Positions 28,740 through 52,564 of a stretch of DNA of 64,000 nucleotides are shown piece after piece. Source of the DNA: Halobacteroides halobius DSM 5150. Lineage in GTDB: Bacteria > Bacillota > Halanaerobiia > Halobacteroidales > Halobacteroidaceae. The notes below the pieces were generated by a model that was not told where the DNA came from, searched no databases, and saw only the letters and a program-made list of their open reading frames with translations. Made by a program: the position numbers and the translations under genes. Within the stretch, counting starts at the first letter, position 1. Every line of letters begins with the position of its first letter. Location: positions 2,480,001 to 2,544,000 of the forward strand of contig NC_019978.1 of the NCBI RefSeq assembly GCF_000328625.1, given 5' to 3'.

Positions 28740-29823
<1,084 letters not shown>

Positions 29824-29909: not shown

Positions 29910-31364
29910 TTACAAATATCTCTCAATCACTATTTTCTTTTCTGTATAAAAATCAATTACATCTCTGCCCTGAGCATGTAAGTCTCCAAAGAATGAATCT
30001 TTCATACCACTAAATGGGAAATGAGGTACAGGCGCAGGTACACCAATATTAATTCCAATGTTACCACCTTCTACTTCATAAGCAAACTTTCTAGCCCACT
30101 TTCCACTTTGAGTATAAATATTAGCAGCATTACCATAATTGTTGCTATTAATTAAATCTCTAGCTTCTTCAAAAGTATCAACTTTAATTAAATTCATTAC
30201 TGGGCCAAATATCTCTTCATGTACAATATCCAAATCATGAATATCACCTGTTAGAACTACTGGACCTATAAAATGTCCATCTTCATATCCTTCTACCTCT
30301 ATATCTCTACCATCAACTAAGACTTTTGCTCCTTGATCTATTGCTTCATCAATTCGGCTTAAGATACTTTCTTTAGCTTTAGCTGTAATTAATGGCCCCA
30401 TCTCAACACCTTCATCTAAACCATAACCCACTTTAATATTTGGAACCTGTTCTACAACCATTTCCTTTAGTTGATCATAAGTTTCATCTCCAACTGCCAC
30501 TAAATTCTGACCTGCTAAGCATCTTTGTCCTGCACAGGCAAAGAAAGAACTAAAGATATTTGATTTTGCTGCTTCTAGATTAGCATCTGGCATTACAGTA
30601 ATAAAATTGCATGCTCCACCTTGACATTGGGCTCTCTTGCCTTCCATAGCTGCTTTAGTATATACTTTCTTAGCAACAGGTGTTGAACCAACAAAAGAGA
30701 CTCCTTCAATATCATCACTTTCTAATAAAGTAGTAGATACCTCTTTACCACCATGAACTAAATTAACTACTCCTTCTGGAATACCAGCTTCTTCTATTAA
30801 TTCCATCAAGATTTGAGCAGTATAGGGAACCTTTTCCGATGGCTTAATAATATAAGTATTTCCAGTCGCAATAGCATACGGTACAAACCAGAAAGGAATC
30901 ATTGCTGGGAAATTAAAAGGAACAATACAAGTAAATACACCCATTGGTTGCTTAATAGCCTTTTCATCAATTCCACGTGCAATATCTTCAGAATTATATC
31001 CTTGCACTAAAGATGGAATTCCTGCTGCTACTTCTACATTTTCTAAAGCCCTTTGCACCTCAGCTCGAGCCGATTTAATATTTTTACCATTTTCTTCAAC
31101 AACTGCTTCAGATAATCTATCATAATTTTCTTCTATTAAATTCTGTAACTTAAATAAATATCTAGCTCTTTCTACAGGTGGTGTACTTCGCCATTCCCAA
31201 AAGGATTCTTTGGCTGTTTGAATAGCCTCTTCAACTTCCTTTGTTGTAGACATAGGTGTTTTCCCAATCATTTTTGTTGTAGCTGGATTAATAACGTCAA
31301 CATATTGGTCTGTGCTAGAACTAACCCATTCCCCATTAATGTGGTTTTTTAATTCTTCTACCAT
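29910..31364 (-). CDS. iolA: Methylmalonate-semialdehyde dehydrogenase, CoA-acylating
   Basis: Last step of inositol breakdown: malonate semialdehyde and CoA to acetyl-CoA and CO2. It has 484 residues. The catalytic cysteine is in FFACAGQRCLAGQ (about 275-287), and FNFPAMIPFWFVPYAIATGN plus FIGPVVLTGDI are typical of the MMSDH family. It is the last gene of the iol operon with its own AGGAGG site, preceding a strong terminator. The 82-base gap to iolG shows no promoter or terminator. Confidence 0.94.
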   Translation of the reverse strand: MVEELKNHINGEWVSSSTDQYVDVINPATTKMIGKTPMSTTKEVEEAIQTAKESFWEWRSTPPVERARYLFKLQNLIEENYDRLSEAVVEENGKNIKSARAEVQRALENVEVAAGIPSLVQGYNSEDIARGIDEKAIKQPMGVFTCIVPFNFPAMIPFWFVPYAIATGNTYIIKPSEKVPYTAQILMELIEEAGIPEGVVNLVHGGKEVSTTLLESDDIEGVSFVGSTPVAKKVYTKAAMEGKRAQCQGGACNFITVMPDANLEAAKSNIFSSFFACAGQRCLAGQNLVAVGDETYDQLKEMVVEQVPNIKVGYGLDEGVEMGPLITAKAKESILSRIDEAIDQGAKVLVDGRDIEVEGYEDGHFIGPVVLTGDIHDLDIVHEEIFGPVMNLIKVDTFEEARDLINSNNYGNAANIYTQSGKWARKFAYEVEGGNIGINIGVPAPVPHFPFSGMKDSFFGDLHAQGRDVIDFYTEKKIVIERYL

Positions 31365-31446: not shown

Positions 31447-32463
31447 TTAGTTTTTAGCTATTTGACTTGGTTTAACTGGCCGTCCTTTTTCTAAAGACTT
31501 TTGAGCAGCTAAACCTATTAATATAGGTTTCAATCCATCAGTTCCATCAACAGGAACTTCTGTATCATTAGCTACTGCATTAACAAACTGCTTAATTTCA
31601 TCAGCAAAAGATTCCATATATCTTTCTAAGAAGAAATATAAAGGTTTTTCTTTAGTTACCCCTTTTTCTGTACTGACTACAGCAGTTGATTCTCTATCAT
31701 TAGTTACTTTCACTGAACCTTTGGACCCAAATACTTCTGCTCTCTGATCATAGCCATAAGCTGCTTCTCTACTATTATCAATCACAGCAATAGCTCCATT
31801 CTTTAATTTTAATGTAATTACTGCTGTATCAACATCTCCTGCTTCACCAATCTCAGGATCAACTAATACTTCACCTGCTGCATATACTTCTTCTACTTCA
31901 CTTCCTGATAAATAACGCACCATATCAAAATCATGGATAGTCATATCTAAAAATATTCCGCCTGATAATTTTACATAATCTATTGGAGGAGCTTCAGGAT
32001 CTCTTGATGTTATTTTAATAATATGTGGCTCTCCCACTTTTCCAGCCTCTACAGCTTCCTTAACCGCCTTGAAATTATGATCGAATCTACGATTAAAACC
32101 AACCTGGAATTTTACTCCTTCTTCTTCTACTACATTCAGCACTTCATGAATCTTATCCAGATCATGATCTATGGGCTTTTCACAAAAGATATGTTTACCA
32201 GCTTTAGCTGCTTCAATAGATATTTGAGAATGTGTATCTGTTGAAGAGCAAACTAATACTGCCTCAATTTCAGAATCAGTTAAAATCTCCTTGTAATCTT
32301 TATAAACATTAGGAATTCCCATAGAGTTGGCCCATTCCTCAGTTTCATCATCTATATATGGATCTGCAATTCCTTTTATTTCAGCATTAGGTACATAATT
32401 TGTTATACTTTCTGCATGAACCTTTCCAATTCTTCCTGCCCCAATAATTCCTACTTTAATCAT
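31447..32463 (-). CDS. iolG: myo-Inositol 2-dehydrogenase
   Basis: NAD-dependent Gfo/Idh/MocA enzyme, first step of myo-inositol catabolism. It is 338 residues from ATG at 32463, chosen for GGGAGGAG upstream; a longer start would overlap iolE and lacks a site. Rossmann motif KVGIIGAGRIGKVHAE, the catalytic Lys in CEKPIDHD (about 94-101), and the DMTIHDFDMVRYLSG region (Asp and His) are present. It lies between iolE and iolA. A second Gfo/Idh gene at 35366 may act on another isomer. Confidence 0.9.
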   Translation of the reverse strand: MIKVGIIGAGRIGKVHAESITNYVPNAEIKGIADPYIDDETEEWANSMGIPNVYKDYKEILTDSEIEAVLVCSSTDTHSQISIEAAKAGKHIFCEKPIDHDLDKIHEVLNVVEEEGVKFQVGFNRRFDHNFKAVKEAVEAGKVGEPHIIKITSRDPEAPPIDYVKLSGGIFLDMTIHDFDMVRYLSGSEVEEVYAAGEVLVDPEIGEAGDVDTAVITLKLKNGAIAVIDNSREAAYGYDQRAEVFGSKGSVKVTNDRESTAVVSTEKGVTKEKPLYFFLERYMESFADEIKQFVNAVANDTEVPVDGTDGLKPILIGLAAQKSLEKGRPVKPSQIAKN

Positions 32464-32485
32464 TTTAACTCCTCCCTTTTTACCT

Positions 32486-33388
32486 TTATAAACCAGTTTT
32501 TTCTTCAATAAATCCTCTAGTTTGCACTGCATACTCAAATGGATTAGCTTTAGCTGGATCTTGCTCAGCTTCTACAACCATCCATCCTTCATAATCAGCT
32601 TCTTCTAAAATCTTAAAAATAGGATCAAAATCAATTGCTCCATCTCCTGGAATTGTAAATACTCCCATCTTTACTCCTTCTAAAAAACTTAATTTATCTT
32701 CTTTTACTTCTGCTACTACTTCTTCTCTAACATCTTTTAGATGCACATGAGCAATCTGGTCTACACATTTAGTTAATAACTTTTCTACTGATTCTTGAGT
32801 TCCTTCTGAGTAATACATATGTCCAGAATCAAATAATAAATATACATCATCATTTGTCATCTCCATAAATTTATCTGTCTCTTCAGGAGTTTGAATCCCA
32901 GTTCCCATATGATGGTGTAAAGAAACCTTCATTCCTTTTTCCGCTGCTAACTCAGCTAATTTATTGTATCCTGCTGCTACCTTGGCCCACTCTTCTTCTG
33001 TAAACTCTGGCTTTTCATCAAAAATTGGCTTATCTAAACCTTGAATGCTATAACTTTGTTCTGAACAACCAATTACTTTAGCTCCCATTTCATGAAGAAA
33101 ATCTCTATGTTTAATAAATTCTTCAATAGTTTCTTCTTGTGGTCTAGTAGCAAAAAAGGTACTAAACCAAGCATTACAGATTTGAATTCCTCTAATATCT
33201 AACTTTGGTTTTAGTACTTCAGGATCATTTGGATACTTATTACCTACTTCACTTCCTGTAAACCCTGCTAAAGCCATTTCACTAACACATTGTTCAAAAG
33301 TATTTTCCTTTCCTAGCTCTGGTAGATCATCATTTGTCCAAGCAATTGGTGCTATTCCTAACTTTACCTTCTCTGGATTCATTGTCAT
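32486..33388 (-). CDS. iolE: scyllo-Inosose dehydratase
   Basis: Second step of the pathway, converting 2-keto-myo-inositol to the diketone. It has 300 residues and the AP-endonuclease-like TIM barrel with [16 protein letters not shown] at the start, [36 protein letters not shown] and [11 protein letters not shown], which carry the metal-binding residues. It starts 11 bases after iolD and is followed 22 bases later by iolG. Confidence 0.95.
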
Positions 33389-33399
33389 TTAAAGCCCCC

Positions 33400-35334
33400 T
33401 TAATATTTCCTCGCCTTTTCTATTTCACCTTTTAACTCTTGATGCGCCTGTTGCACACTTTCCTTTTCCGATACTTCTGGTACACCTACTCGCCACCAAG
33501 ATTCATAACCATGAGTCATAGTTTTTGGTAATACTTTAATATCAATTAAAGTAGATACTTTTGATTTTTTAGCATCCTTAATTGCCTCTTTTAGCTCTTT
33601 TACATTAGTAACTCTATAAGTCTTAACTCCATAACCAGCTGCACTAGCAGCAAAATCAATTGGTACTAATTCACCATCTAACTTGCCAGTTTCTTCATTT
33701 CTAAATCTAAACTCAGTTCCAAAGCTACCCATTCCTTGAGACATCTGTAGATTATTAATACAACCAAAGGCCATATTATCAAATAAAACTACATTTATTT
33801 TCTTCTGTTCTTGAATGCTGGTTACTAATTCAGAATGGAGCATCATATAACTTCCATCGCCAACCATGGCATATACTTCTTTATCTGGTTCTGCTAGCTT
33901 AGCACCTAAAGCACCACATACTTCATAACCCATACATGAATAACCATATTCCATATGATAAGTATTAGTTTTTTTAGGGCGCCAAACTCTTTGTAAACAT
34001 CCTGGTAAACTACCTGAAGAACCTACTATAATTGCATCATCAGCTAATAATTTATCTAATTCACCTAAAACTCTTGTTTGAGTTAACATGCTTTCTGTAT
34101 CTTCATTAAACTCTGATAAAACTTCATCTAAATGACCAGCTACTTCTGGTGTAAAGTCTTCTCCTGTATACTCTAAGTTAAATAATCTATCTACTTCTTG
34201 TTTCCACTCTTCTTTAATAGTCTCAATTTCATCTGTATATGAAGATTGGTAGCTTTCCTCTTTTAGAGCTTTAGTTAAAGCCTTCAATCCTGCTTTAGCA
34301 TCAGCTACTAAAGGTAAGGCATCTAATTTATAAGCATCAAATTCACAAATATTAATTCCGATAAATTCCACATCCGGATTTTGAAATAATTGCTTAGAAG
34401 CAGTTGTAAAATCCATAAATCTAGTTCCTACTCCAATTACCACATCAGCTTCTTTAGCAATTTTATTAGCTGCTAGATTACCCGTAACTCCAATTCCACC
34501 TAGGTTTAATTCATGATCCCATACAATAGCACTCTTTCCAGCTTGCGTTTCACAAAATGGAATATTAAATTTTTCTGCAAACTCTTTAAACTCATCTGCT
34601 GCTTCTGAATATCTAACTCCTCCACCACAAATAAGTAGTGGCTTTTCTTTCTTAGTAATCAATTCTACTGCCTCTTCTAATAAAGGTTTAGTTAATGGTC
34701 GCCTATCTAAGCGATGAACTCTTTTCTTAAAGAATTCTTCTGGATAATCATACGCTTCCGCCTGTACATCCTGTGGTAAGCAAATTGTAACTGTTCCTGT
34801 CTTAGCTGGGTCTGTTAATACCCGCATAGCATTAATTGCTGCTGTCATTAGTTGTTCTGGCCTATTTACTCTATCCCAGTATTTACTGACTGCTCTAAAA
34901 GCATCGTTAGTAGTTGTTGTAAAATTAGTTGGATGTTCAACCTGCTGTAACACTGGATCAGGCTGTCTACAAGCAAAAGTATCTCCTGGTAATAGTAATA
35001 ATGGAATTCTATTGGCTGTAGCTGTACCTGCTGCTGTTACCATATTAGCAGCTCCTGGGCCAACTGAAGAAGTACAAGCATAGATCTTTTGTCTCTTATT
35101 TTGCTTAGCAAAAGCAGTAGCAGCATGAGCCATTCCTTGCTCATTACGACCTTGATGGACTACTAAATCACCTGGATCTTGTTCTAAGGCTTGCCCTAAA
35201 CCGACTACATTTCCGTGGCCAAAAATAGTGAAAACACCTTCAACAAATTTATTTTCTACTCCATCAACCTCTAAATATTGATTATCAAGGAATTTGACTA
35301 ATGCTTGAGCTACTGTTAATCTAATTGTTCCCAT
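33400..35334 (-). CDS. iolD: 3D-(3,5/4)-trihydroxycyclohexane-1,2-dione hydrolase
   Basis: Thiamine-diphosphate enzyme opening the inositol ring to 5-deoxy-glucuronate. It is 644 residues with the acetohydroxyacid-synthase fold: N-terminal pyrimidine-binding part with [15 protein letters not shown], the middle domain, and the C-terminal ThDP site [15 protein letters not shown] with [13 protein letters not shown] (about 515-540). Ring-opening by IolD commits the sugar to catabolism. Confidence 0.96.
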
Positions 35335-35365
35335 AATTACACCTCCTATTTGCTCACTAATTTAA

Positions 35366-36382
35366 TTATTCAATATCAATAAGTTTATTTTCTTGGAAGG
35401 ATCCTGTTAAATCATAAGCTATTTTTGTATTTTTAGTTCCATCATAAACTGTAATATCTGGTTTTCTATCTTCAATAATACAGTCTACAAATTCTTGTAA
35501 CTCATCTACATAAGCTTGATCAAATCTTTCTAAAAAGTCTTGAGAGCACTCTTTTCTAACCCCATCTTGATCTAAAATCTCAACTAAATTCTTTTGTGGC
35601 ACACTACCAATTCTTAAAATGCCTTCTGTTCCTATAATTTCAGTCTCTACATTATAACCATGAGGTGCAGTTCTTCCTGCAAATAAGAAGCCCATAGCAT
35701 CATTTTCAAACTTCATTAAAGCAGATACATTATCACCATCATCATATTCAGCAAACTGGGGATAAGCATAACAGCCTCCAATAGCCCACGCTTGCTTGGG
35801 TTCAGAATCTAACAGCCATCTAGCTGCATCAATATCATGAACTGCCATATCAATAAATTCTCCACCACTATGAGCAAGATATTCTAACGTTCCATCAATA
35901 GCACTCTCAGGATCTTGACTATACCCTCTATATAAGAATGGCTTACCAACCTTACCTTCATCAATCATCTTTTTAGCATAAACATAAGAGGGATCATATC
36001 TTCTCATAAATGCTAACATGAAAACTAGGTCAGGATGTTTTTCAACAGCTTTTTCAGCTACTTTACATTCTTCAACAGTAGTTCCTAATGGCTTTTCAGA
36101 CAGTACATGTAAACCTGCATCTAAAGCTTTTTCAATTTGATCACAGTGTAAAGATGAAGGGGAACAAAGAAATACTGCATCTAATTCTTCATTTTGAATC
36201 ATTTCATCATACTCAGTATATCCATATGGTACTCCCCAATTTTCCTGTACTTCATTTATTTTATCCTCTTCTAAAGCACAAACTGCTGTTAATTCTGCTT
36301 GTGGTACTCTAAAAGCAATATTTTCTGCGTGTTGAATTCCTAGTCTTCCTAAACCAACCATACCCATTTTAATTTTTTTCAT
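35366..36382 (-). CDS. Gfo/Idh/MocA-family dehydrogenase (second, inositol-type)
   Basis: NAD(P)-dependent oxidoreductase of 338 residues: GMVGLGRLGIQHAENIA dinucleotide site, catalytic Lys in SEKPLGTT (about 94-101), then FIDMAVHDIDAARWLL with Asp and His. It is similar in layout to iolG but clearly diverged, and does not copy it. In inositol operons such second dehydrogenases often act on scyllo-inositol or other isomers or on inosose. Position between iolB and iolD supports an inositol-related substrate, not proven. Confidence 0.85.
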   Translation of the reverse strand: MKKIKMGMVGLGRLGIQHAENIAFRVPQAELTAVCALEEDKINEVQENWGVPYGYTEYDEMIQNEELDAVFLCSPSSLHCDQIEKALDAGLHVLSEKPLGTTVEECKVAEKAVEKHPDLVFMLAFMRRYDPSYVYAKKMIDEGKVGKPFLYRGYSQDPESAIDGTLEYLAHSGGEFIDMAVHDIDAARWLLDSEPKQAWAIGGCYAYPQFAEYDDGDNVSALMKFENDAMGFLFAGRTAPHGYNVETEIIGTEGILRIGSVPQKNLVEILDQDGVRKECSQDFLERFDQAYVDELQEFVDCIIEDRKPDITVYDGTKNTKIAYDLTGSFQENKLIDIE

Positions 36383-36417
36383 AAGTAATTCCCCCTATAA
36401 TTTATAAATAATAATTT

Positions 36418-37209
36418 TTAATCCTCCGGCCATATTTTAGCATCTTCATTATATAACCATTCATGATCTGGATCATCAACTCTATCTGTCCAAGGATTAG
36501 CTTCTAAATGTCTAATCATCCAGCAAATATACATAGCATAGCCAGGCGCAGAAGTTTGTGGATGAACTAGACCTCCAGGAATTGTTACTGTATCATTATG
36601 TTCAACCTTTAATACATCATCTCCAACAAGTGAACAACCAAAACCTTGTGGCTTATTAAAGCGATAATAATAAACTTCTGGTTGAGCATGACTATGTGGT
36701 GGATAACTTGACCATCTACCTGGATGAGTTATTGATTCTCCCATTACCATATTAGAATAAGGGGCACTATCATAATCAAAGACTGTTCTTACAGTTCTAG
36801 TAGCTGTGCTATTCATTATACTTTCTCCAAATATATCTACTGTACAATCTTCAGGTGTATAAAATACAGCATCAAACTCTTCTTCATTTCTAGTCTTTTG
36901 GACTAATACTTCCGACTCAGCCTGAGCTGTAATCTTTACTTTAGTTCCTTTCGGTACATGTAAAACCCAAGGCTCTTCATCAAAACAAGAATTTCTTGTA
37001 GCCTGTTCTTTATTCCCTTCCCATTCAAAGGTAACTTCTCCATTAATAAGTAAATAAGCACTTTCTTTTTCTCCCTCTAAAACTTCTTCTACTTGGTCTG
37101 CTTCTAATTTTAAAATTCCAACATCCATTAACATCGTACTATACTTACCATCTAATTCAGTAATGCTATTGTATCCAGCTTTAAATTCTCCATCCTGATT
37201 AATTAACAT
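36418..37209 (-). CDS. iolB: 5-Deoxy-glucuronate isomerase
   Basis: Converts 5-deoxy-D-glucuronate to 2-deoxy-5-keto-gluconate. The 263-residue bicupin has the motifs HPGRWSSYPPHSHAQPEVYYYR and VHPQTSAPGYAMY, with the metal-binding histidines of the cupin fold. It starts 12 bases after iolJ and is followed by the second dehydrogenase gene. Confidence 0.95.
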   Translation of the reverse strand: MLINQDGEFKAGYNSITELDGKYSTMLMDVGILKLEADQVEEVLEGEKESAYLLINGEVTFEWEGNKEQATRNSCFDEEPWVLHVPKGTKVKITAQAESEVLVQKTRNEEEFDAVFYTPEDCTVDIFGESIMNSTATRTVRTVFDYDSAPYSNMVMGESITHPGRWSSYPPHSHAQPEVYYYRFNKPQGFGCSLVGDDVLKVEHNDTVTIPGGLVHPQTSAPGYAMYICWMIRHLEANPWTDRVDDPDHEWLYNEDAKIWPED

Positions 37210-37221
37210 TGTATCCCTCCT

Positions 37222-38052
37222 TTAAAATCCTAAAATTCTTAACTTTTCTTTTGTTGCTTCAGTTACTGCTTCCATTGGCTTCTTAAACCACTTAATCCGA
37301 TCAAATTCTTCAGGATTCTCTTCTACTTCTGCTTTTAAAGTATTACCAAAAGCCATTCGTAAAGCAGTTCCAATATTAACTTTCCCTACTTGAGTAGTAG
37401 CAAGTTTACTTAAATCCTCATCAGTAACTCCTGATGAGCCATGAATTACTAATGGTGTATCAACTAACTTTTCTATTTCTACTAATCTATCATATTGAAT
37501 TTCGGCACCTTGTTTTTTCATTCGGTGTAAAGTTCCTACTGCTACTGCTAAAGCATCAACATTAGTCTTTTCTGCAAAAATTTTAGCTTCTTCTGGATCA
37601 GTATAAATTTCTTCAGCTTCAATTGTTGAGTCATTATATCCTACAGATCCAATCTCTGCTTCTACTGCTACTCCCACCGAATGGGCCAACTTCACAATTT
37701 CTTGCGTATTTTTAATATTTTCTTTTAAAAGTAATTGAGAACCATCATACATTACTGAAGTAAATCCACTTTTAATTGCTCTAACAGCCAAAAAATAATC
37801 TTTAGCATGGTCTAGCTTAACACAAACTGGTACATCTGCTTCTTCAGCTAATGGACAAAAAATATTAGCTAAAATTTCTACTGGCATATGCTCAACTGCA
37901 TCCTTATTAGCCATTAAGATTACAGGAGCATCCATTTCTTCTGCCGCTTTGATTACTGCAGTAGCATCTTCATAGCCATAAACATTAAATCCAGCAACGG
38001 CATAATTGTTCTTAGCTGCCTTATCCACCATATCTCTTAAATTAACTAACAT
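37222..38052 (-). CDS. iolJ: 6-Phospho-5-dehydro-2-deoxy-gluconate aldolase
   Basis: Class II aldolase that splits the phosphorylated product of IolC into dihydroxyacetone phosphate and malonate semialdehyde. It is 276 residues. It resembles the glycolytic fba of this window, with VKLDHAKDYF, EAEIGSVGYNDS, GTLHRMKKQGA and VIHGSSGV as the metal/phosphate motifs. Location immediately after iolC decides the assignment between Fba and IolJ. Confidence 0.9.
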   Translation of the reverse strand: MLVNLRDMVDKAAKNNYAVAGFNVYGYEDATAVIKAAEEMDAPVILMANKDAVEHMPVEILANIFCPLAEEADVPVCVKLDHAKDYFLAVRAIKSGFTSVMYDGSQLLLKENIKNTQEIVKLAHSVGVAVEAEIGSVGYNDSTIEAEEIYTDPEEAKIFAEKTNVDALAVAVGTLHRMKKQGAEIQYDRLVEIEKLVDTPLVIHGSSGVTDEDLSKLATTQVGKVNIGTALRMAFGNTLKAEVEENPEEFDRIKWFKKPMEAVTEATKEKLRILGF

Positions 38053-38085
38053 CTTCTTACCCTCCAGACTAACTTTTCTAATAAT

Positions 38086-39105
38086 CTATGTGCTAGCAAC
38101 CCTTTCCCCATATTCTTCCTTCTTCTCTTTAATAAACACTTCAATTTCTTCGACTGTTGGCATAGCATCTGAACAACTATGGCTAGCAACTAACATAGCT
38201 GCTGAGGCACTTCCAAATTCAAGACACTTATCTATATCCCAATTCTGCATTAAACCATAGATAAAGGCTGAAGCATAAGCATCTCCACCACCAAATGTCT
38301 TTACTACTTCTACTGGGAATGGTTTAATATCATAACTTTCTCCTTCTTTAGTATAAGCTGTAGAGCCTTCCTTACCATGTTTAACTACTACTATCTGAGC
38401 ATTATAATCAAACCAATGCTGAGCAGTAGCCTGATCATTCTCATTCTTTGGCATAGTCAAACTCTCTACTATATTAAATTCTTCTCGAGAACCAATAATC
38501 ACATCACTCTTTTCTGCTGCTAAACTATAATAAATAGCAGTTTCTTCCTCAGATCTCCAAGAATATGGTCGATAATCAATATCAAAGACAACAACGGTAT
38601 CATGTTTTCTTGCATAATCAATAGCTAAAAATACTGCCTCTCGAGAAGGGCTTTTAGATAAAGCAGTTCCAGATACTTGTAACACCTTACTGTTTCTAAT
38701 ATATTCTTCATCAATATCTTGCGGGTCAATCTTTAAATCTGCTACATTATCTCGATACATCAAAATACTACAATCTGTAGGACTCTTAATCTCTGTAAAA
38801 GCTAAACCAGTCATTGCACCTTCCTGATCAATAACTATATTTGAAGTATCTATTCCATCTTGTTCAAAATAATTTAAAATATAGTTACCAAATTGATCCT
38901 CTGAAACTTTACCAATAAATCCTGTATCCATTCCTAACCTTGCCATTCCAATACTAATATTAGCCGGCGAACCACCTACATATTTAGTAAATGTTTCTGT
39001 TTCTTCCATGGGTCTATGAATCTCATTAGCGTTTAAATCTACACCAATTCTACCTATCGCTATAAAATCTCTCTTTTTTTTCTCATTAAAAACTAAGTTA
39101 TTCAT
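38086..39105 (-). CDS. iolC: 5-Dehydro-2-deoxygluconokinase
   Basis: PfkB-family kinase phosphorylating 2-deoxy-5-keto-gluconate at C6. It is 339 residues from ATG at 39105, chosen since AGAGGTGA lies at good spacing; a GTG three codons earlier overlaps that site. Motifs are AIGRIGVDLNANEI, GGSPANISIGMARLG and the PfkB signature with the catalytic base in FGGGDAYASAFIYGL (about 283-297). First catabolic gene after the transporter block, separated from it by a stem-loop at 39198-39228. Confidence 0.94.
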   Translation of the reverse strand: MNNLVFNEKKKRDFIAIGRIGVDLNANEIHRPMEETETFTKYVGGSPANISIGMARLGMDTGFIGKVSEDQFGNYILNYFEQDGIDTSNIVIDQEGAMTGLAFTEIKSPTDCSILMYRDNVADLKIDPQDIDEEYIRNSKVLQVSGTALSKSPSREAVFLAIDYARKHDTVVVFDIDYRPYSWRSEEETAIYYSLAAEKSDVIIGSREEFNIVESLTMPKNENDQATAQHWFDYNAQIVVVKHGKEGSTAYTKEGESYDIKPFPVEVVKTFGGGDAYASAFIYGLMQNWDIDKCLEFGSASAAMLVASHSCSDAMPTVEEIEVFIKEKKEEYGERVAST

Positions 39106-39197
39106 ATTTTTCACCTCTTTTGTTAATCTATTTACCTAAATTACCTGAATTCTCCAAACAATAAATTAGTTGCAGAACTAAAAAGTATTAGATTATA

Positions 39198-39228
39198 CCC
39201 TAGTATTAATCTCTGATTAATACTAGGG
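39198..39228. repeat. Perfect intercistronic stem-loop between transporter and catabolic genes
   Basis: Inverted repeat with 14-bp arms CCCTAGTATTAATC and GATTAATACTAGGG and a 3-base loop. On the minus strand it is followed by TATAATCTAATAC, not a U tract, so it is a weak terminator candidate. It may be an mRNA processing or stability hairpin that gives transporter and enzyme genes different levels, or an operator. Confidence 0.7.
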
Positions 39229-39250
39229 ACCAAAATAGAATTTAAATCAG

Positions 39251-40240
39251 TTATTCGTTATCTCTTTGTCGTAATACATCTACATAAACAGCAGCAATAA
39301 TTACCACTCCAATAACTACTGTCTGAATATCTGCAGAAACTCCCAATAAATTTAATCCATTTCTAATAACCGCTATAATCATAGCACCAATCATAGTACC
39401 CCAGATAGTACCAATTCCACCAAAAAAACTTGCACCTCCAATAATTACAGCAGCAATAGCATTTAGTTCATACTTTAATCCAGCTAAAGGATAAGCAGAA
39501 TTTACTCTTCCCATTAATACCAGTCCCCCCATCGCAGCCATCAAACCTGCAATTGTAAATACAATAGTTCTTACTTTATCAGTATTAATACCAGAAAGTC
39601 TAGCTGCTTCAATATTTCCGCCAACAGCATAAATATGTCGTCCTAAACTAGTTTTATTTAAAAAATAGTAAAAGATTACTGCCATAATTAATACTAAAAT
39701 AACACTAAATGGAACTATCCCAACTTGCCCAACTCCAATAAAGGTAATTACATCTGAAAAACCTGAAACTGGAGAAGAATCAGTAACTATCAAAGCCAAA
39801 CCACGTGCAATATTCATCATTCCCAAAGTTGAAATAAATGGGTGTGGTAAATTTAACTTAGTTAAAAGTAATCCATTAATTGTTCCCACCAAAGCACCCG
39901 TTGCTAGAATAATAAGTATTCCCACTAATGGAGAAACCCCAGCTTTAATAGCAACTCCTCCTACACAAATTGATAAAGCTAATACTGAACCAACAGATAA
40001 ATCAATTCCTGCAATTAAAATTGCTAATAACTCTCCAGAAGCTATAAGTGCATTAATACTTGCTTGTTGAGCCACATTCATTAAATTACTTATACTTAAA
40101 AAATATGGACTAGCTACTGATAATATCCCCATTAATAAAATCAATCCTAATAAAGGACCTAATTTATCAAATAATAACTCCTTCCATTCAATCCCTTCTC
40201 CATTTATATTCTCTTTAACTGTGCTTTTTTCAACTGACAT
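39251..40240 (-). CDS. Ribose-type ABC transporter permease
   Basis: Inner-membrane permease (RbsC/XylH-like), 329 residues with about nine or ten hydrophobic segments. Landmarks are GIDLSVGSVLALSICVGG, LPHPFISTLGMMNIARGLALI, and SLGRHIYAVGGNIEAARLSGI, the last being the ATPase-contacting loop. It overlaps the ATPase stop by 11 bases. Together with the ATPase and binding protein it forms one importer, most likely for inositol. Confidence 0.92.
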   Translation of the reverse strand: MSVEKSTVKENINGEGIEWKELLFDKLGPLLGLILLMGILSVASPYFLSISNLMNVAQQASINALIASGELLAILIAGIDLSVGSVLALSICVGGVAIKAGVSPLVGILIILATGALVGTINGLLLTKLNLPHPFISTLGMMNIARGLALIVTDSSPVSGFSDVITFIGVGQVGIVPFSVILVLIMAVIFYYFLNKTSLGRHIYAVGGNIEAARLSGINTDKVRTIVFTIAGLMAAMGGLVLMGRVNSAYPLAGLKYELNAIAAVIIGGASFFGGIGTIWGTMIGAMIIAVIRNGLNLLGVSADIQTVVIGVVIIAAVYVDVLRQRDNE

Positions 40241-41744
40241 CTTTTATCCCTCCTGTAGCAGCACTCATAATTTTTTCCTTACTTGCCTCATCTGTATTAA
40301 ATCTTCCAGTTATCTTCCCCTCATGAACAACTAATATACGATCACTCATATTTAAAATTTCTGGTAATTCGGAAGAAATCATAATAACTGTATTCCCTTT
40401 TTTTACTAAATCATTAATAATATTAAATACTTCTACTTTAGCTCCAACGTCAATACCTCTCGTTGGTTCATCAAAAATAAAGATATTAGCTTCTGTATTG
40501 AGCCACTTTCCAATTACTACTTTCTGTTGGTTCCCTCCGCTAAGTTGAAGACACTTTGTCTGTACATTAGGAGTCTTAATATTTAGATTATCAACCATTC
40601 GAATAGCATCTTTTCTTTGTTCTTGGAGATTCAAAAATCCATTTTCTCGATATTTTTTTAAATTAGAAGATGCAATATTGAACTTTACAGACTGCTTTAA
40701 AAACAACCCCTGTTCCTTTCGATCTTCAGTTAATAAGGCTATTCCATTCTCTAAAGCAACTTTAGGAGAATCAATCTTTACTTTTTTTCCATGAACATAA
40801 ATATCACCAGAATCTTTAGAATCTGCTCCAACTATAGCTCGTGCTATCTCTGTCCTTCCAGCACCCACTAAACCAGCAATTCCAAGAACTTCTCCCTCAT
40901 AAGCTTTGAATGAAACATTATTAAGCACACCTTTCCGATTCAAATTTTCAACCCTTAATGATTCTTTTCCGGGTTCAACCTTCATTTTAGGAAACTTATT
41001 GTCTACATCTTCTCCTACCATATAACTGATCATCTTATCTTCAGTCAAATTATCTACTCTATCAGTAATAATATACTTTCCATTTCGCAAAACAGTCACT
41101 CTATCTGCCATTTTTTTAACCTCATCTAATTTATGTGAAATAAATATCATTGTTACGCCTTGTTTTTTTAATGTTCCCATTGTATCAAATAACTCTTTCG
41201 TCTCATCTTTACCTAAAGAAGAAGTAGGTTCATCAAGAATAAGTAGTTTAGTCTCTACAGATAAAGCTTTAGAAATCTCTACCATCTGTTGTTTTCCTAC
41301 ACCAAGATCTCTTATTAAATCATTAGGAGATATACTTTCTTGACCTAATCTTGATAATATTTTTTTAGTTTCTTCTTCCATTCGTTCTCTATCTATCCAC
41401 CCTAATATTTCGTTTTTACTTTTTTCACGCCCCATAAATATATTCTCCGTTACATCTAATTGTGGGATTAAATTTAACTCTTGATAAATAGGAGTTATGC
41501 CTAATTGTTCTAATGCCTTTTGGGGATCATTATCCTCTAGTTTCTTTCCTTCAATATAAATTTCGCCTTCAGTTGGAGTGTGAACTCCTGTAAGCACTTT
41601 AATTAAAGTTGATTTCCCAGCCCCATTTTCTCCTAATATGGCATGTACTTCACCACGTTTAATTTCTAGGTCGACTCCATCTAAAGCTCTAACTCCTGGA
41701 AATTCTTTAGTTAAATTTTTTATCTTTAAAAATGGTTCTATCAT
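40230..41744 (-). CDS. Ribose-type ABC transporter, duplicated ATPase subunit
   Basis: Peripheral ATPase of 504 residues with two nucleotide-binding halves: first GENGAGKSTLIKVLTG (about 38-53) with signature DLGVGKQQMVEISKAL and LILDEPTSSLG; second GLVGAGRTEIARAI (about 287-300) with LSGGNQQKVVIGKWL and IFDEPTRGIDVGAK. The weaker second P-loop is normal for RbsA-type proteins. It lies between binding protein and permease in the order typical of the ribose/xylose/inositol class. Confidence 0.94.
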   Translation of the reverse strand: MIEPFLKIKNLTKEFPGVRALDGVDLEIKRGEVHAILGENGAGKSTLIKVLTGVHTPTEGEIYIEGKKLEDNDPQKALEQLGITPIYQELNLIPQLDVTENIFMGREKSKNEILGWIDRERMEEETKKILSRLGQESISPNDLIRDLGVGKQQMVEISKALSVETKLLILDEPTSSLGKDETKELFDTMGTLKKQGVTMIFISHKLDEVKKMADRVTVLRNGKYIITDRVDNLTEDKMISYMVGEDVDNKFPKMKVEPGKESLRVENLNRKGVLNNVSFKAYEGEVLGIAGLVGAGRTEIARAIVGADSKDSGDIYVHGKKVKIDSPKVALENGIALLTEDRKEQGLFLKQSVKFNIASSNLKKYRENGFLNLQEQRKDAIRMVDNLNIKTPNVQTKCLQLSGGNQQKVVIGKWLNTEANIFIFDEPTRGIDVGAKVEVFNIINDLVKKGNTVIMISSELPEILNMSDRILVVHEGKITGRFNTDEASKEKIMSAATGGIKDVS

Positions 41745-41842: not shown

Positions 41843-42886
41843 TTAATTAAAGACTTTGTTAAATACCTCTTCTCCAAACAAGTTTTTAAGATGATTTTTA
41901 CTAAAAGCCCTAGTTAGTTTTTGCATATTTTTTACTACATTTTCTTTATCAATTACATAAGTTGGTACTCGAATTTGTTTCTTAACCTCTTGCCCTTTTA
42001 AATACTGGACCATTTTCTTTACTCCAGTATATCCTATCCCATACGAATCTTGTTTTGTAGTAGCAGTTAAATCACCATTGTAAATTGACTTAAGAGCACC
42101 AGGAATACCATCAAAGCCCATTATTTTTATATTATCCAAATCAGCACTAGGAGAACTTTTAATAGCCCTTGCAGCTCCTAAAGCCATACTATCGTTTTCT
42201 GCGTAAACTGCATTAATATTTTGAAAAGACTGTAACATATTTTGCATTACCCTAAATGCCTTACCACGAGAACTATCCGCTGGTTGTATAGAAACTACTT
42301 CTATACCAGTTCCTTTTATCCCAGCTAAAAAACCCTTAGTTCGTTGGTCAAAAATATAATCCCCTGCTGCCCCACGAATAATAGCTAATTTTGCTTCGCT
42401 ACCTAATTTTTTAGCCATATATTTACCAGCTTTTTTAGCAGCATAGAAGTTACCAGTACCAGCAAAAAAAGCTTTTCCTTTAAAATCAGCATCTGTATCA
42501 ATCGTACCTACTGCAATTCCTTGATTAACAGCTTTTTTCAAAATTGGTCTAGCAGAAGATGGTCTTAGAGGAGCTACTACCAAAGCATCTACTCTTCTGG
42601 TGATTTGGTCTTGAATCAAATTAATTTGTTGCATTATTTGAGTTTCACTTTCTGGACCTATAACATCCACTTTAACATTATATTTTTTAGCAGCATCTTT
42701 GGCCCCCGCTGCTACACTCTTCCAATAATCACTATTTGTTGCTTTCAATACTACCGCAATTTTATACTTAAAATCTTGCTTATTTTCTTTCTCATCTTCA
42801 CCAAAAATCCACCATGCAGATGTACTAAGAGTTAAGCCTAAAACCAAAGTACAAACCATAAATATCACTACCAATTTTTTCTTCAT
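41843..42886 (-). CDS. Ribose-type substrate-binding protein (putative inositol binding protein)
   Basis: Exported binding protein of 347 residues. The signal peptide (about 1-24, MKKKLVVIFMVCTLVLGL then TLSTSA) is followed by a mature N terminus WWIFGEDEKENKQ and the Peripla_BP_4 domain starting YKIAVVLKATNSDYWKSV, with LDNIKIMGFDGIPGA near the end. No lipobox Cys is present. The WWIFG[DE]DE start recurs in the unrelated Opp-type binding protein at 50474. It is the first gene of the iol operon, with AAAGGAGG before the ATG and a long structured leader upstream. Confidence 0.9.
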   Translation of the reverse strand: MKKKLVVIFMVCTLVLGLTLSTSAWWIFGEDEKENKQDFKYKIAVVLKATNSDYWKSVAAGAKDAAKKYNVKVDVIGPESETQIMQQINLIQDQITRRVDALVVAPLRPSSARPILKKAVNQGIAVGTIDTDADFKGKAFFAGTGNFYAAKKAGKYMAKKLGSEAKLAIIRGAAGDYIFDQRTKGFLAGIKGTGIEVVSIQPADSSRGKAFRVMQNMLQSFQNINAVYAENDSMALGAARAIKSSPSADLDNIKIMGFDGIPGALKSIYNGDLTATTKQDSYGIGYTGVKKMVQYLKGQEVKKQIRVPTYVIDKENVVKNMQKLTRAFSKNHLKNLFGEEVFNKVFN

Positions 42887-42998: not shown

Positions 42999-43011
42999 AA
43001 TCACCTCCTTA
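42999..43011 (-). promoter_or_regulatory. Orphan Shine-Dalgarno-like site in the operon leader
   Basis: Minus strand reads TAAGGAGGTGATTAAAG (core 43000-43010), nearly a full complement of the 16S 3' end, but the only following short frame is V/I-K-E-S-stop. It lies about 115 bases upstream of the binding-protein start. It is preceded by arms AATTAAGAG and CTCTTAATT that could form a hairpin. Leader peptide remnant or ribosome standby/regulatory site. Confidence 0.45.
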
Positions 43012-43121
43012 CACAATTAAGAGTTAAACTAAATAGTTCTTATAATCTTATCTCTTAATTTCAATAATTTGATTATTAAAAAAATTCTAAAAATATTAAT
43101 TTTCTATAAAATTATTGAAAA

Positions 43122-43177
43122 GAAAAAAACCTACTAAATCCCAAAATAGAGATTCTAATCTCTCTGGATATAGTAGG
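43122..43177 (-). terminator. Leader terminator, copy 1
   Basis: Stem CCTACTA/TAGTAGG (ends 43130 and 43177) with an inner AGAGATT/AATCTCT helix. On the minus strand it is followed by TTTTTTTCTTTT. It lies about 55 bases after the copy-1 promoter start and before the transporter genes. Confidence 0.8.
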
Positions 43178-43242
43178 TTATTATAAAAAGTTATAAACTT
43201 ATGACTACTTTTCATATTATACTTAATCATCCTCTAGCTGTG

Positions 43243-43271
43243 ATTATGTTAAACGTTTACAAAACAATCAA
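43243..43271 (-). promoter_or_regulatory. Operon promoter P1 with operator in the spacer
   Basis: Minus strand TTGATT (43266-43271), 17-bp spacer holding TTGTAAACGTTTAA, and CATAAT as -10 (43243-43248). Binding of the operator by a LacI-type repressor would block polymerase directly. This is the proximal promoter of the ABC-iol operon. Confidence 0.72.
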
Positions 43272-43455
43272 AAAAATATATTAGTTGTTATTATTCTTTT
43301 TTCTTTGATTATTTAACTTCTCATTATTATATTAGTATATTATCTTCCACTTTTCAAGTTATTTTACTAATTATTTAAATTTTTACGAATCTATATCATT
43401 CCATCTTGACTTCAATGATTTAATTATCCAAATTTTTTATAAAATTATTGAAAAT

Positions 43456-43509
43456 AAAAAACCTACTAAATCCTAAAATAGAGATTCTAGTCTCTGTGGA
43501 TATAGTAGG
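43456..43509 (-). terminator. Leader terminator, copy 2
   Basis: Stem CCTACTA/TAGTAGG (43462-43468 with 43503-43509), inner helix partly paired, followed on the minus strand by TTTTTTATTTT. It stands between promoter P2 and promoter P1, so P2 transcripts should end here unless antiterminated. Confidence 0.78.
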
Positions 43510-43574
43510 TTCTTATAAAAAGTTATAAACTTATGACTACTTTTCATATTATACTTAATCATCTTCTAGCTATG

Positions 43575-43603
43575 ATTATATTAAACGTTTACAAAATAAT
43601 CAA
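43575..43603 (-). promoter_or_regulatory. Distal promoter P2 with operator in the spacer
   Basis: Minus strand TTGATT (43598-43603), 17-bp spacer holding TTGTAAACGTTTAA, and a perfect TATAAT (43575-43580). It is stronger on paper than P1. Its product should be a leader RNA of about 110-120 bases ending at the copy-2 terminator. Confidence 0.74.
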
Positions 43604-43712
43604 AAAATATAACAGTCATTATTATTCTTTTTCTTTTGATTATTTAACTTCTTATTATTATAATAATATATTATTTTCCACTTTTCAAGTACTTTTACTA
43701 ATTATTTAAATT

Positions 43713-43931: not shown

Positions 43932-43968
43932 ACAAAGCAGACTATTAAAAATTGGTAGTCTGCTTTGT
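43932..43968 (-). terminator. Stem-loop terminator after the GH36 gene
   Basis: A perfect 13-bp inverted repeat ACAAAGCAGACTA/TAGTCTGCTTTGT with an 11-base loop, five bases past the stop. The following U tract on the minus strand is poor (GTAATC), so it may work as a stabilising or partial terminator. Confidence 0.6.
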
Positions 43969-43973
43969 TCCAA

Positions 43974-46163
43974 CTATTCAATAGCTTTTAACCTCCAAGT
44001 AACACTTTGAAAATCACCACTTGTTAATAGTTCTTGAGGAAGATTAACTCCAGCATACATCAATAAATCTCCTCGATAAATTTTTTCATTACTTAACATT
44101 CGATACTTAAACTTTGGATTTAATCCTTGCAATTTAAGACTCAAACAAGGAACATTTGGTTCAGCTAATACTTTATAATAACCTACATATGCTTCTTTTC
44201 TATCTTCAGAGACTATCATCCATGCGGTATCATTATTTTCTGCAAAAGGAGTTGCTAACCTATAAAAATTTCCTTGTTGGACAAGCTTTCTTACTTCTTT
44301 ATACTCAGATACTTGTTCCTTAATTATTTCTTTCTCTTCTGTTGTTAACTTAGTTAAATCAAGTTCATATCCCAGATTCCCAAATTCAGCTACATTTCCC
44401 CTTGTTTTTAAAGGAGTTATCCGAGCTACCTGATGATTTGGTACTGCTGAAACATGAGCTCCCATTGCACTTAATGGATATACTATACTAGTCCCATACT
44501 GAATCTTTAATCTTTCTACAGCATCAGTATCATCACTAGTCCAAGTCTGAGGCATATAATGTAGCATACCGGGATCAAATCTTCCGCCACCACCAGAGCA
44601 ACTTTCAAATAGTATATTTGGAAATCTAGTAGTTAATTCTTCTAAAACTTTATATAATCCTAACATATATCTATGCACAGTCTCTTGTTGTCTTTGTGAA
44701 GATAGTTTAGCAGAGCCAATTTCAGTCATATTACGATTCATATCCCACTTAACATAAGTAATTGGAGCACTTTCTAAAATATCTGATATCTGCTCTATAA
44801 TATAATCACAGACCTCGGGGCGAGATAAATCTAAAATCAACTGATCTCTGGCCATTGATCGCTCTCGATTAGGCACATGAAGACACCAGTCGGGATGGGC
44901 TCGATATAAATCACTATCAGGAGAAACCATTTCTGGTTCAAACCATAATCCAAACTCTAATCCTAAATCATTTATTTGCTCTCCTAAACTATCTAAACCA
45001 TTAGGTAATTTATTTTCATCTGCAAACCAATCTCCTAGAGATGAGGTATCATCATCTCTCTTACCAAACCAACCATCATCTAAGACAAATAACTCTAGTC
45101 CTAATTCTTGACCTACTTCTGCAATTTCCAAAATCTTATCTTCATTAAAGTCAAAGTAAGTTGCTTCCCAATTATTAATTAAAATTGGTCTTTCTTTATC
45201 TCTAAATTTACCTCGGGCCAAGCGCGTTCGGTATAATTTATGGTAAGTTTGAGACATCTTATTAATCCCTTGGTCTGAATAAACCAGCACTACTTCTGGG
45301 GCTTGAAAACTTTGCTTTGGTTCTAGTAACCAGTTAAAATCAAATGGATTAATCCCCATTGCAACCCTTGTTTGATCGTATTTATTCACTTCAACCTGAG
45401 CCAAAAAGTTTCCACTATAAACAAAACTAAAACCATAAGCTTCTCCTTGACCCTCAGTTGTATCCTCTCTTAATAAAGCAATAAAAGGATTTTGAGAATG
45501 ACTACTAGCTCCTCTTTTACTCTCAACTGCTTGTAAACCAGATACTAAGGAACGCCGTTTAATATGTCGCTCTCTGGTCCAAGCACCTGATAACTGTAAT
45601 AATTCATAATCACTATTTTTAAAATCTATACTAGCACTTAATGCTCTCTTTAGATTTAACTCTTTTGAGCCTTGATTAATAAATTTAACTGACCTTGTAA
45701 TAACAGCAAAATCTTCATAAGTTGTATAAGAAAGAATGACCCTTAAATTAGCTACTTCATCAACTAATGTTACCTCTAAAGTCTCAGCTTCAGAATCATC
45801 TTCTACATAAGTAGCTGGTAAACCATCTAGGCTCTTCTTTCCTCTATAAATCTCATGAGATTTATACTTTAAATTTGATATTCTAGATCCATTCTTTAAC
45901 TGAACTTGATAAGCTGGTTGTCTAAAATCTGAATGACCATAACTGGGATACTCTTTAGAAGCTAAATCCATTGTAAAAGATGCTCTATCTTGACTACCCA
46001 AATATGGATTTAAAGCTGTGCAATCTGTTTTTTCTATTAAATTAAGCTTTTTGCCCCAATAAACATGATATAAATCCTCTGTTTCTGATATCTTGATTAT
46101 ATAACTTGTATTTTTAGCTTGTAAATGAAAGAGCTTTTCTTCTTTCTGATAGGTAATTCCCAT
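43974..46163 (-). CDS. GH36 alpha-galactosidase
   Basis: Retaining alpha-galactosidase of 729 residues: N-terminal beta-supersandwich, central barrel with the nucleophile Asp in YVKWDMNRNMTE (about 470-481), acid/base Asp in QTWTSDDTDAVERLKIQYG, plus LFVLDDGWFGKR and the CSGGGGRFDPG loop. It acts on raffinose, stachyose or melibiose-type substrates. No signal peptide, so it works in the cytoplasm after uptake. ATG at 46163 is preferred; GTG or TTG immediately upstream are alternatives. It is the last gene of the galactoside operon. Confidence 0.92.
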   Translation of the reverse strand: MGITYQKEEKLFHLQAKNTSYIIKISETEDLYHVYWGKKLNLIEKTDCTALNPYLGSQDRASFTMDLASKEYPSYGHSDFRQPAYQVQLKNGSRISNLKYKSHEIYRGKKSLDGLPATYVEDDSEAETLEVTLVDEVANLRVILSYTTYEDFAVITRSVKFINQGSKELNLKRALSASIDFKNSDYELLQLSGAWTRERHIKRRSLVSGLQAVESKRGASSHSQNPFIALLREDTTEGQGEAYGFSFVYSGNFLAQVEVNKYDQTRVAMGINPFDFNWLLEPKQSFQAPEVVLVYSDQGINKMSQTYHKLYRTRLARGKFRDKERPILINNWEATYFDFNEDKILEIAEVGQELGLELFVLDDGWFGKRDDDTSSLGDWFADENKLPNGLDSLGEQINDLGLEFGLWFEPEMVSPDSDLYRAHPDWCLHVPNRERSMARDQLILDLSRPEVCDYIIEQISDILESAPITYVKWDMNRNMTEIGSAKLSSQRQQETVHRYMLGLYKVLEELTTRFPNILFESCSGGGGRFDPGMLHYMPQTWTSDDTDAVERLKIQYGTSIVYPLSAMGAHVSAVPNHQVARITPLKTRGNVAEFGNLGYELDLTKLTTEEKEIIKEQVSEYKEVRKLVQQGNFYRLATPFAENNDTAWMIVSEDRKEAYVGYYKVLAEPNVPCLSLKLQGLNPKFKYRMLSNEKIYRGDLLMYAGVNLPQELLTSGDFQSVTWRLKAIE

Positions 46164-46204
46164 CACCAATCACTCCATTTTATAAATAATATTAGTCTTA
46201 CTTA

Positions 46205-50473: not shown

Positions 50474-52564
50474 TTAATAATCACTAGGTGTAATAATATT
50501 ATCTTCATACAGCTCTTCTTTTTGTTTTTCTTTTGGTGTCCAAATAATCTCTAGAGGGAAGTTGGACATAGTCCAATCATACTGATAAACAGGAGTATCT
50601 GGAGCTATATTCTTAAGTCTACTATTAATTCCTATTCCACGTCTAACTTGAATTAAAGGAATAGTATATAAATTTTTAGTATATAGCTTTTGAATCTCTC
50701 GGTATAAGCTCATCTTTTGCTCTACATCATTAGTTACCTTAGCCTGTGCTAATAATTTTTTCATCTTTGCTTCAAATGGTAATAAATCACGTTTACCACC
50801 ATTTCCAGCCGAATGCCAATATGGTGTGCTTTTAGTTACTAGACCTATATAATCAGGATGAAGAGCTGGAGTAAATCTATAATCTTCTCTACCTACATTT
50901 ATCTCATAATCATTGGCGTTAGTTTTAGAATTAGATAAGGTAGCTTTTAATGGCTTAGGATTGAAGTCAATTCCTACTTTTCTATACATTGGAACTAATG
51001 CTTGTGTTATATCAATAGTTGCACTCTGGTCAGCATCAATTAATGCCTCAATAATTAAATCTTGCCCAGCTAATAAACTATTCTGTGGCCAATTAACAAT
51101 ACCATTATCATCAGTATCTTTAAATCCTAATTCTGCTAATAACTCTTTAGCTTTTGTTACATTATACTTATAAGCAGTGACATCTTCTTTCTTGTAATAG
51201 GCTGACCCTTGAGTATAGGCTCCATACCAGGGCTTAACAAACTTTTGACTTGGAAATAAAGCATTAGCTATTCCGGCTCGATTAGTAGCATAAGATAGTG
51301 CTTTTCTAAACTTCAACTTTCTAAATAAATTACGCAATGCTTTATCTCTCTTAGTAGAATTATTCTTGTATAAAGATAAGTTGAAATTTAGATGATAAGC
51401 TGAATCAAAAGGACCAAAATTAATATCTATATAATCTTTTTGATTAGCTGCTTGTTTAATAGTTGCAAAAGCACTTGGGTTTTCTATATTTGTTCTATCA
51501 CCAGAACCATTAATCAAATTAAGTGTCCGAGTTTTTCCGCTATTGGCTTCTGTAAACCATACTTCATTAAGATAAGGTAGTTGATTACCTTCCTCATCTA
51601 CTTGCCAGAAATAGGGATTTCTTGTTAAAACCAACATTTGACCTGGTTTATACTTTGTTGGCACATAAGGACCCAGAGTTGCTACTGGTAAATCCTGAGG
51701 TGCTTTAGCATTAAGAAACTCTTGATAAGTTATATCCTCATTAAATGCTGGATGCAAAGATTTATAGACATGTTTAGGGGCTATAGCAAATCTGGGTTCA
51801 GCCATCTCAAAGAGAGCCTGTTGAGGTCTAGAAACCCCAAAATGCCACTTAATAGTATAATCATTTACCTTTTCTATCTTAGTAACCTCTCCTCCATAAG
51901 TCCATGTACCTTTACTAGCTAAACTAGGAACTCTTTCATCTAGAATAAAATGTCGGTAAGTAAAAATAATATCATCAGCAGTAAATGGTTGGCCATCTGA
52001 CCATTTAGCACCTTTGATCAAGTTCATTGTTAAAGTTTTTCCATCTGCTGACCACTTCCAATCAGTTGCTACACGAGGAAGTACCTTTGGCTTCTCTAAC
52101 ATCCACATTGGCCCTAAATCTACTAATCCTGTTTGAACTATCTGATTAATTCCAAAATAACCTTGGATCTGACCTGCAGCCCAATTCCAACCTTCAACTG
52201 GTACTGCAAAAGTGTCTCGCCAAACACCTCCATACTCTCCAATACCATTAGCCATCATTGTTCTTTGAACCACACGAGGATTGCTAGGTAGTCTCTTGTC
52301 AACAGAAGGTAATTTACCCGCTTCTACTAATTCTTCAAGTTGTGGAGCTTGATTATAATCTGCTAAAGACTTATAGACCCATATCTCACTTGGAGCAAGT
52401 CTAGAACCAAGTTTTTTAGCTTTCTTAGTAACTACTTTTTCTTTAACTTTCTTCTTTTCTTGTTCTTCATCATCGCCAAAGATCCACCAAGCACCAGCAG
52501 TCATTGATAAAGAGAAGACTAATACTAAAGCTAAAACTGTCACCAAACTTTTTTTCTTAAACAA
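50474..52564 (-). CDS. Opp-type substrate-binding protein
   Basis: A 696-residue exported binding protein of the SBP family 5 (cluster C). The signal peptide (about 1-24, VLALVLVFSLSMTAGA) is followed by WWIFGDDEEQEKKK and a lysine-rich linker (about 25-55), with no lipobox. The SBP5 domain shows WKWSADGKTLTMNLIKGAKW, FTADDIIFTYRHFI and a C-terminal LYREIQKLYTKNLYTIPL. It is long for the family. Context with two alpha-galactosidases favours galactosides over peptides as the ligand. Confidence 0.9.
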   Translation of the reverse strand: MFKKKSLVTVLALVLVFSLSMTAGAWWIFGDDEEQEKKKVKEKVVTKKAKKLGSRLAPSEIWVYKSLADYNQAPQLEELVEAGKLPSVDKRLPSNPRVVQRTMMANGIGEYGGVWRDTFAVPVEGWNWAAGQIQGYFGINQIVQTGLVDLGPMWMLEKPKVLPRVATDWKWSADGKTLTMNLIKGAKWSDGQPFTADDIIFTYRHFILDERVPSLASKGTWTYGGEVTKIEKVNDYTIKWHFGVSRPQQALFEMAEPRFAIAPKHVYKSLHPAFNEDITYQEFLNAKAPQDLPVATLGPYVPTKYKPGQMLVLTRNPYFWQVDEEGNQLPYLNEVWFTEANSGKTRTLNLINGSGDRTNIENPSAFATIKQAANQKDYIDINFGPFDSAYHLNFNLSLYKNNSTKRDKALRNLFRKLKFRKALSYATNRAGIANALFPSQKFVKPWYGAYTQGSAYYKKEDVTAYKYNVTKAKELLAELGFKDTDDNGIVNWPQNSLLAGQDLIIEALIDADQSATIDITQALVPMYRKVGIDFNPKPLKATLSNSKTNANDYEINVGREDYRFTPALHPDYIGLVTKSTPYWHSAGNGGKRDLLPFEAKMKKLLAQAKVTNDVEQKMSLYREIQKLYTKNLYTIPLIQVRRGIGINSRLKNIAPDTPVYQYDWTMSNFPLEIIWTPKEKQKEELYEDNIITPSDY

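Follow-up and report, generated by a model that had tools for sequence, protein, structure and literature searches.

On the minus strand of a 64,000-nucleotide stretch of the Halobacteroides halobius DSM 5150 genome (hereafter the window), ahead of an inositol transporter gene, a unit consisting of promoter, operator, leader and intrinsic terminator occurs twice, head to tail, at an offset of 331-332 nt. We think it probable that this region imposes two layers of control, LacI-type repression and a leader terminator, and that the unit carrying both was duplicated. Judging from the distribution of the operator and from the gene neighborhoods of the regulator's orthologs, a LacI-family regulator would bind the operator in the promoter spacer and block initiation without inositol. 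A strong intrinsic terminator, present in the sequence, would then stop most transcripts after ~112 nt. Only the polymerases that get past it would express the operon, whether a constant proportion does so or a factor assists them. The downstream copy, with promoter P1, would feed the operon. The upstream copy would add a second operator and promoter (P2), whose transcripts would mostly end before P1 and so would neither interfere with P1 nor add much mRNA. The features are listed from the upstream copy to the far end of the iol cluster.

43598..43603, minus: P2 -35 hexamer TTGATT, read directly
43582..43593, minus: P2 LacI-type operator TGTAAACGTTTA in the promoter spacer, from an exact-match genome search
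43575..43580, minus: P2 -10 hexamer TATAAT
43514..43548, minus: copy-2 leader hairpin, 10 AU-rich pairs, no better than shuffles
43456..43513, minus: copy-2 intrinsic terminator with U6, -21.5 kcal/mol, z -5.4
43266..43271, minus: P1 -35 hexamer TTGATT
43250..43261, minus: P1 LacI-type operator TGTAAACGTTTA in the promoter spacer, from the same exact-match search
43243..43248, minus: P1 -10 hexamer CATAAT
43182..43216, minus: copy-1 leader hairpin, 10 AU-rich pairs, no better than shuffles
43123..43179, minus: intrinsic terminator of copy 1 with a U7 tract, downstream of P1 and ahead of the first gene, -21.6 kcal/mol, z -4.4
43000..43010, minus: AAGGAGGTGAT, matching the anti-Shine-Dalgarno complement over 11 nt and lying 124 nt ahead of the first start codon, 0/200 shuffles
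41843..42886, minus: first gene, RbsB-type sugar-binding protein of an inositol ABC transporter, 58-61% identical to Halanaerobium iol-operon homologs
31447..41744, minus: rest of the transporter and catabolism (ATPase, permease, iolC, aldolase, iolB, Gfo/Idh/MocA dehydrogenase, iolD, iolE-like, iolG), gene calls including TIGR04382, TIGR04377 and TIGR04380 above cut-off
29910..31364, minus: iolA-type methylmalonate-semialdehyde dehydrogenase, TIGR01722 above cut-off
29772..29783, plus: third exact operator copy TGTAAACGTTTA, before the regulator gene, presumed autoregulation
28740..29753, minus: LacI-family regulator, presumed repressor at the three operators

The first-pass annotation of this DNA had described a two-copy module, and both copies indeed contain every part it named; what changes is the geometry. 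The copies are 89% identical over 178 nt at offset 332 and 112 nt at offset 331, and a gapped alignment extends the repeat to ~325 nt with indels. Within their best-matching 77 nt, the core, the copies agree at 74 positions, as originally reported. The annotation also held that the flanks of this core are more diverged. This is true downstream of the terminator, where the DNA is diverged and indel-rich, but is unclear upstream, where 12 of 107 positions differ compared with 6 of 109 in the transcribed part (Fisher p=0.15) and where ~110 nt 5' of the promoter are also similar between the copies (89%). Because the upstream flank and the transcribed part differ no more clearly than this, the two copies by themselves are not enough to show that selection acts on the core as RNA, as had been proposed. 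A mobile element was considered and rejected: the only strong matches in the genome are the two copies themselves, and there are none in plasmids or phages. A 15-nt AU-rich inverted repeat (43059-43073 / 43106-43120) follows the copy-1 terminator and is partly retained in copy 2. The gene upstream of the module (43974-46169) is alpha-galactosidase-like and has a separate hairpin of its own (43932-43968).

Both units have a near-consensus candidate promoter with the operator inside its spacer, as had been claimed. P1 reads TTGATT-17-CATAAT (43271-43243) and matches the consensus at 9 of 12 positions, while P2 reads TTGATT-17-TATAAT (43603-43575) and matches at 10 of 12; from sequence, P2 looks at least as good a promoter as P1. 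Promoter-like matches are not rare in DNA this AT-rich (18 found, 11.3 expected); P1 and P2 are in register with the operator. The operator 12-mer TGTAAACGTTTA has exactly three exact copies in the 2.65-Mb genome (2,649,255 bases), at P1, at P2 and at the LacI-family gene, and the chance expectation with at most one mismatch in 64 kb is 0.25. This restriction ties the module to the regulator, which is encoded at the far end of the iol cluster. In a LacI-regulated operon the target promoters and the gene for the regulator share an operator; that arrangement is seen here, and it supports the earlier assignment of control to the cluster's own regulator, which we presume to act through the three predicted operators. 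Consistent with this assignment, a class-wide search gave orthologs of the regulator at 66-74% identity in genomes of family f3 and at 61% in one other genome, and the orthologs located in Halanaerobium iol clusters are 65-74% identical.

In each copy a leader of ~112 nt ends in a strong intrinsic terminator ahead of any gene, again as claimed. Each terminator is a two-part hairpin followed by 6-7 U, and none of 200 shuffles was as stable in either case; for copy 1, none of 100 shuffles of the 376-nt stretch from operator to ATG contained one as strong. A simple terminator scan missed both because of their internal loops. Transcripts from P2 should end at 43456-43461, and a stand-alone P2 RNA spanning ~43568-43456 (~112 nt, its length set by the position of the -10 hexamer) is plausible. 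Without the terminator, the leader is no more stable than its shuffled versions (z of -0.46 and +0.48 for the two copies). The copy-1 terminator lies between P1 and the transporter gene, the layout of a leader attenuator, and operon transcripts from P1 would have to pass it. The same layout is found in three Halanaerobium iol operons.

These operons came from a comparison of iol loci in Halanaerobium kushneri (L144), Halanaerobium saccharolyticum strains (L143, L164) and Halanaerobium salsuginis (L145). A GTDB scan with a single binding protein returned no matches, and one with an alignment of three orthologs returned 23 loci; elsewhere in the order of the window's genome, no iolD scored above cut-off. 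In Halanaerobium salsuginis a sequence that is IS-transposase-like, by sequence only, adjoins the binding-protein gene at a contig edge (L088 1-300), and this leader was left out because such an insertion would part the gene from its leader. In the other three, which were reached through transporters 58% and regulators 65-67% identical to those of the window, the order of parts is promoters and operators, leader, intrinsic terminator ending ~150 nt before the start codon, polypurine element and gene. Each has two TTGACA/TATAAT-type promoters and at least three LacI-type operators (four are readable in Halanaerobium kushneri), with TG(C/T)AAACGTTT(A/G)A occurring three or more times. Near-consensus promoters TTTGACAATT...TATAAT are seen twice in each of these regions, ~115-130 nt apart, upstream of the tandem LacI operators and roughly 660 to 500 nt ahead of the binding-protein gene.

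A terminator lies between the proximal operator and the first gene in 4/4 intact upstream regions, those of the window and of the three Halanaerobium genomes, the latter being close relatives that count as one or two independent cases. The four have energies of -21.6, -25.8, -29.1 and -23.4 kcal/mol, each unmatched in 100 shuffles. Twelve paralogous sugar-binding-protein loci of the same order served as a control, a weaker one since many of these genes do not come first in their operons. In their non-coding DNA up to 400 nt upstream, no terminator exceeded -14 kcal/mol in strength (L057, at -13.7 kcal/mol, is a weak case). Clostridial iol-type loci showed no comparable arrangement of operator and terminator. 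Within Halanaerobium, 40 of 46 columns between the last operator and the terminator are invariant in a three-way alignment (87%), and the outer arms of the terminator show no variation at all. Because the leader and outer arms are near-invariant while the terminator interior (22/55 columns) and the upstream DNA (65/150) are only 40-43% invariant, we conclude that the leader sequence itself is under constraint in this genus, for which a plain spacer would not account; it might serve as a binding site, either in the DNA or in the RNA.

The constrained sequence is not shared with the window. The window and Halanaerobium leaders align no better than shuffles, which leaves a common ancestry of the terminators unestablished. 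A covariance model built from the two window copies (R1) scores well only on those copies, one built from Halanaerobium (R2) finds only iol control regions in its own family and nothing beyond the operators when applied to the window's module, and neither finds the other group. Searches of 59 class genomes, and of the remainder of the same genome, gave no homolog of the window's core. The first-pass annotation had tied its reading to homologs of the core: there are none by sequence in these 59 genomes, but the layout itself does have homologs. With blastn the core gave weak matches in other genomes, which proved on inspection to lie in unrelated coding or random AT-rich contexts. The next R1 match in the same genome (29.8 bits, E 0.025, 1190721-1190808, L119) precedes a UxaA-type-looking gene and was rejected, as it shares only the hairpin shape (AACCACTATATCTAGGG...AAAGTGGTT). 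On these comparisons, the predicted attenuator layout is conserved in class Halanaerobiia and its RNA sequence is not. Since distant relatives keep a promoter-then-stop layout with different sequence, the stop signal probably does gate expression, and the data support the placement of a terminator in a repressor-controlled leader. Repetition of predicted control elements likewise recurs in the iol operon of both lineages: Halanaerobium repeats its promoters and operators but has a single leader terminator per operon, and the terminated repeat copy is particular to the window's genome.

How the upstream copy is to be understood bears on the competing explanations. It is possible, although we do not favor it, that the module is a passive, fairly old tandem copy in which only P1 works, P2 has stayed similar mainly through short time or occasional gene conversion and the P2 RNA has no role. 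Similarity that continues ~110 nt beyond the promoter, a core that is not clearly better conserved than the upstream flank (p=0.15) and the single leader terminator of each Halanaerobium operon would all fit such a history; P2, however, retains the exact operator, a better -10 hexamer than P1 and an equally stable terminator, and the DNA just past the terminator is strongly diverged. A passive second copy is compatible with an attenuator in copy 1, and copy 2 may be of use as a second operator, may supply a small RNA or may be a remnant. Tandem near-identical sRNA genes are common, and each copy here might be a trans-acting small-RNA gene under the inositol regulator, with P2 making the RNA alone and P1 making it as a by-product. 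Each has its promoter, operator and terminator with no gene between, and an sRNA acts on inositol catabolism elsewhere (RssR in Salmonella, PMC6288124). We nevertheless regard this as distinctly unlikely given the lack of core homologs in the 59 genomes and elsewhere in the genome: the RNA sequence is not conserved in the relatives, the leader 5' of the terminator is not unusually structured and the Halanaerobium operons are without a stand-alone upstream copy. There is a slim chance, in DNA of 22% G+C, that the operon starts at an unrecognized promoter downstream of 43122. In that case the duplicated module would serve for regulation or looping from upstream, and its terminators would do no more than insulate the operon. 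The 230 nt between terminator and gene hold weak promoter-like matches at 43099 and 42984, but no conserved sigma-A promoter (-35/-10) is visible between terminator and gene in the three Halanaerobium genomes, and the ribosome-binding-like polypurine at 43000-43010 suggests a transcribed 5' UTR.

The remaining explanations concern how the terminator might be relieved. The earlier proposals of a ligand-sensing leader or of an antiterminator pairing AGUAG with CUACU now appear very unlikely. AGTAG and CTACT are unchanged in both copies, and the Halanaerobium leaders carry an analogous GTGG/CCAC pair, but imposing the proposed pairing loses 13.1 and 14.0 kcal/mol against the terminator fold in the two copies, and an equally long complement arises by chance in 66-79% of shuffles (about 74-79% for the proposed pairing). 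In neither lineage did we find an antiterminator structure that exceeds chance, and no pair changed on both sides in alignment A3; three close Halanaerobium sequences are too few for a real covariation test. A structured or ligand-binding core likewise lacks support, given the absence of an Rfam match, the shuffle-like folding of the leader alone (z -0.46 and +0.48) and the absence of homologs in the 59 class genomes; we found no aptamer conserved across taxa or belonging to a known family. We give hardly any credence to translation-coupled attenuation, in which a ribosome on a short leader ORF running into the terminator would prevent the hairpin. Short open frames do cross the 5' arm of the terminator in both copies and in the Halanaerobium leaders, but their lengths differ greatly among relatives, and a leader peptide was rejected because no Shine-Dalgarno is suitably spaced; copy 1 has a weak AGAGG, which reads AGAAG in copy 2. 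An unlikely but broader idea is that Halanaerobiia iol operons possess a dedicated, undescribed leader switch in which a factor or metabolite relieves the terminator and the RNA of the duplicated P2 copy titrates that factor; such a leader would have evolved fast between families while being strictly conserved within Halanaerobium.

Returning to two-layer control, we found no description of a leader terminator or of attenuation in inositol operons in the literature searched. The closest likeness in layout is to the RAT/BglG-family bgl and sac operons, in which a terminator lies between the promoter and the first sugar-catabolism gene and expression depends on read-through. Unlike these, the window has no PRD/BglG-type antiterminator among the iol-cluster proteins scanned and no antiterminator hairpin beyond chance, and it combines the terminator with a LacI-type operator in the promoter, the whole unit being duplicated. 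Firmicutes LacI-family sugar operons share the palindromic CG-centered operator in the spacer, the apparently autoregulated repressor in the cluster and the RbsB-type ABC transporter, to which the window adds the leader terminator and the duplicated promoter-leader-terminator unit. The nearest RNA-level inositol control that we found is RssR of the Salmonella myo-inositol island, a short RNA encoded with inositol catabolism genes that acts in trans on reiD mRNA and is SsrB-activated and Hfq-dependent (PMC6288124); the window's predicted RNA is by contrast a leader or a stand-alone leader copy, and no sequence relation is claimed. The Halanaerobium iol regions (L143, L144, L164) resemble the window in their repeated LacI operators, terminator before the binding-protein gene and polypurine after it, but differ in having a single terminator, operators that are not duplicated together with it and a leader not alignable to the window's. 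A leader terminator at the same place in two families, together with the near-invariant Halanaerobium leader, points to RNA-level control atop a LacI-type repressor. Duplicating a module together with the terminator inside it would be an uncommon means of gaining another operator and promoter whose transcription does not run into the original ones.

Two further observations concern the first gene and its 5' UTR. The AAGGAGGTGAT at 43000-43010 has no start codon at a usable distance and resembles a STAB-SD element, a class of mRNA-stabilizing elements known from Bacillus. Long anti-Shine-Dalgarno matches, up to AAGGAGGTGAT, occur ~70-130 nt upstream of the inositol-type binding-protein gene at many Firmicutes loci (the window, L143, L145, L146, L150, L151, L155-L157, L159 and L162). 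Finally, AWWIFG(D/E)(D/E)(D/E) is encoded at seven places in the genome, including 42792-42817 (minus), 52467-52492 (minus) and five more (L170-L174), and at the sites inspected it lies just past the signal peptide in binding proteins of different families. Because a search of the other 58 class genomes did not find its DNA pattern, this distribution suggests a lineage-specific N-terminal tag.
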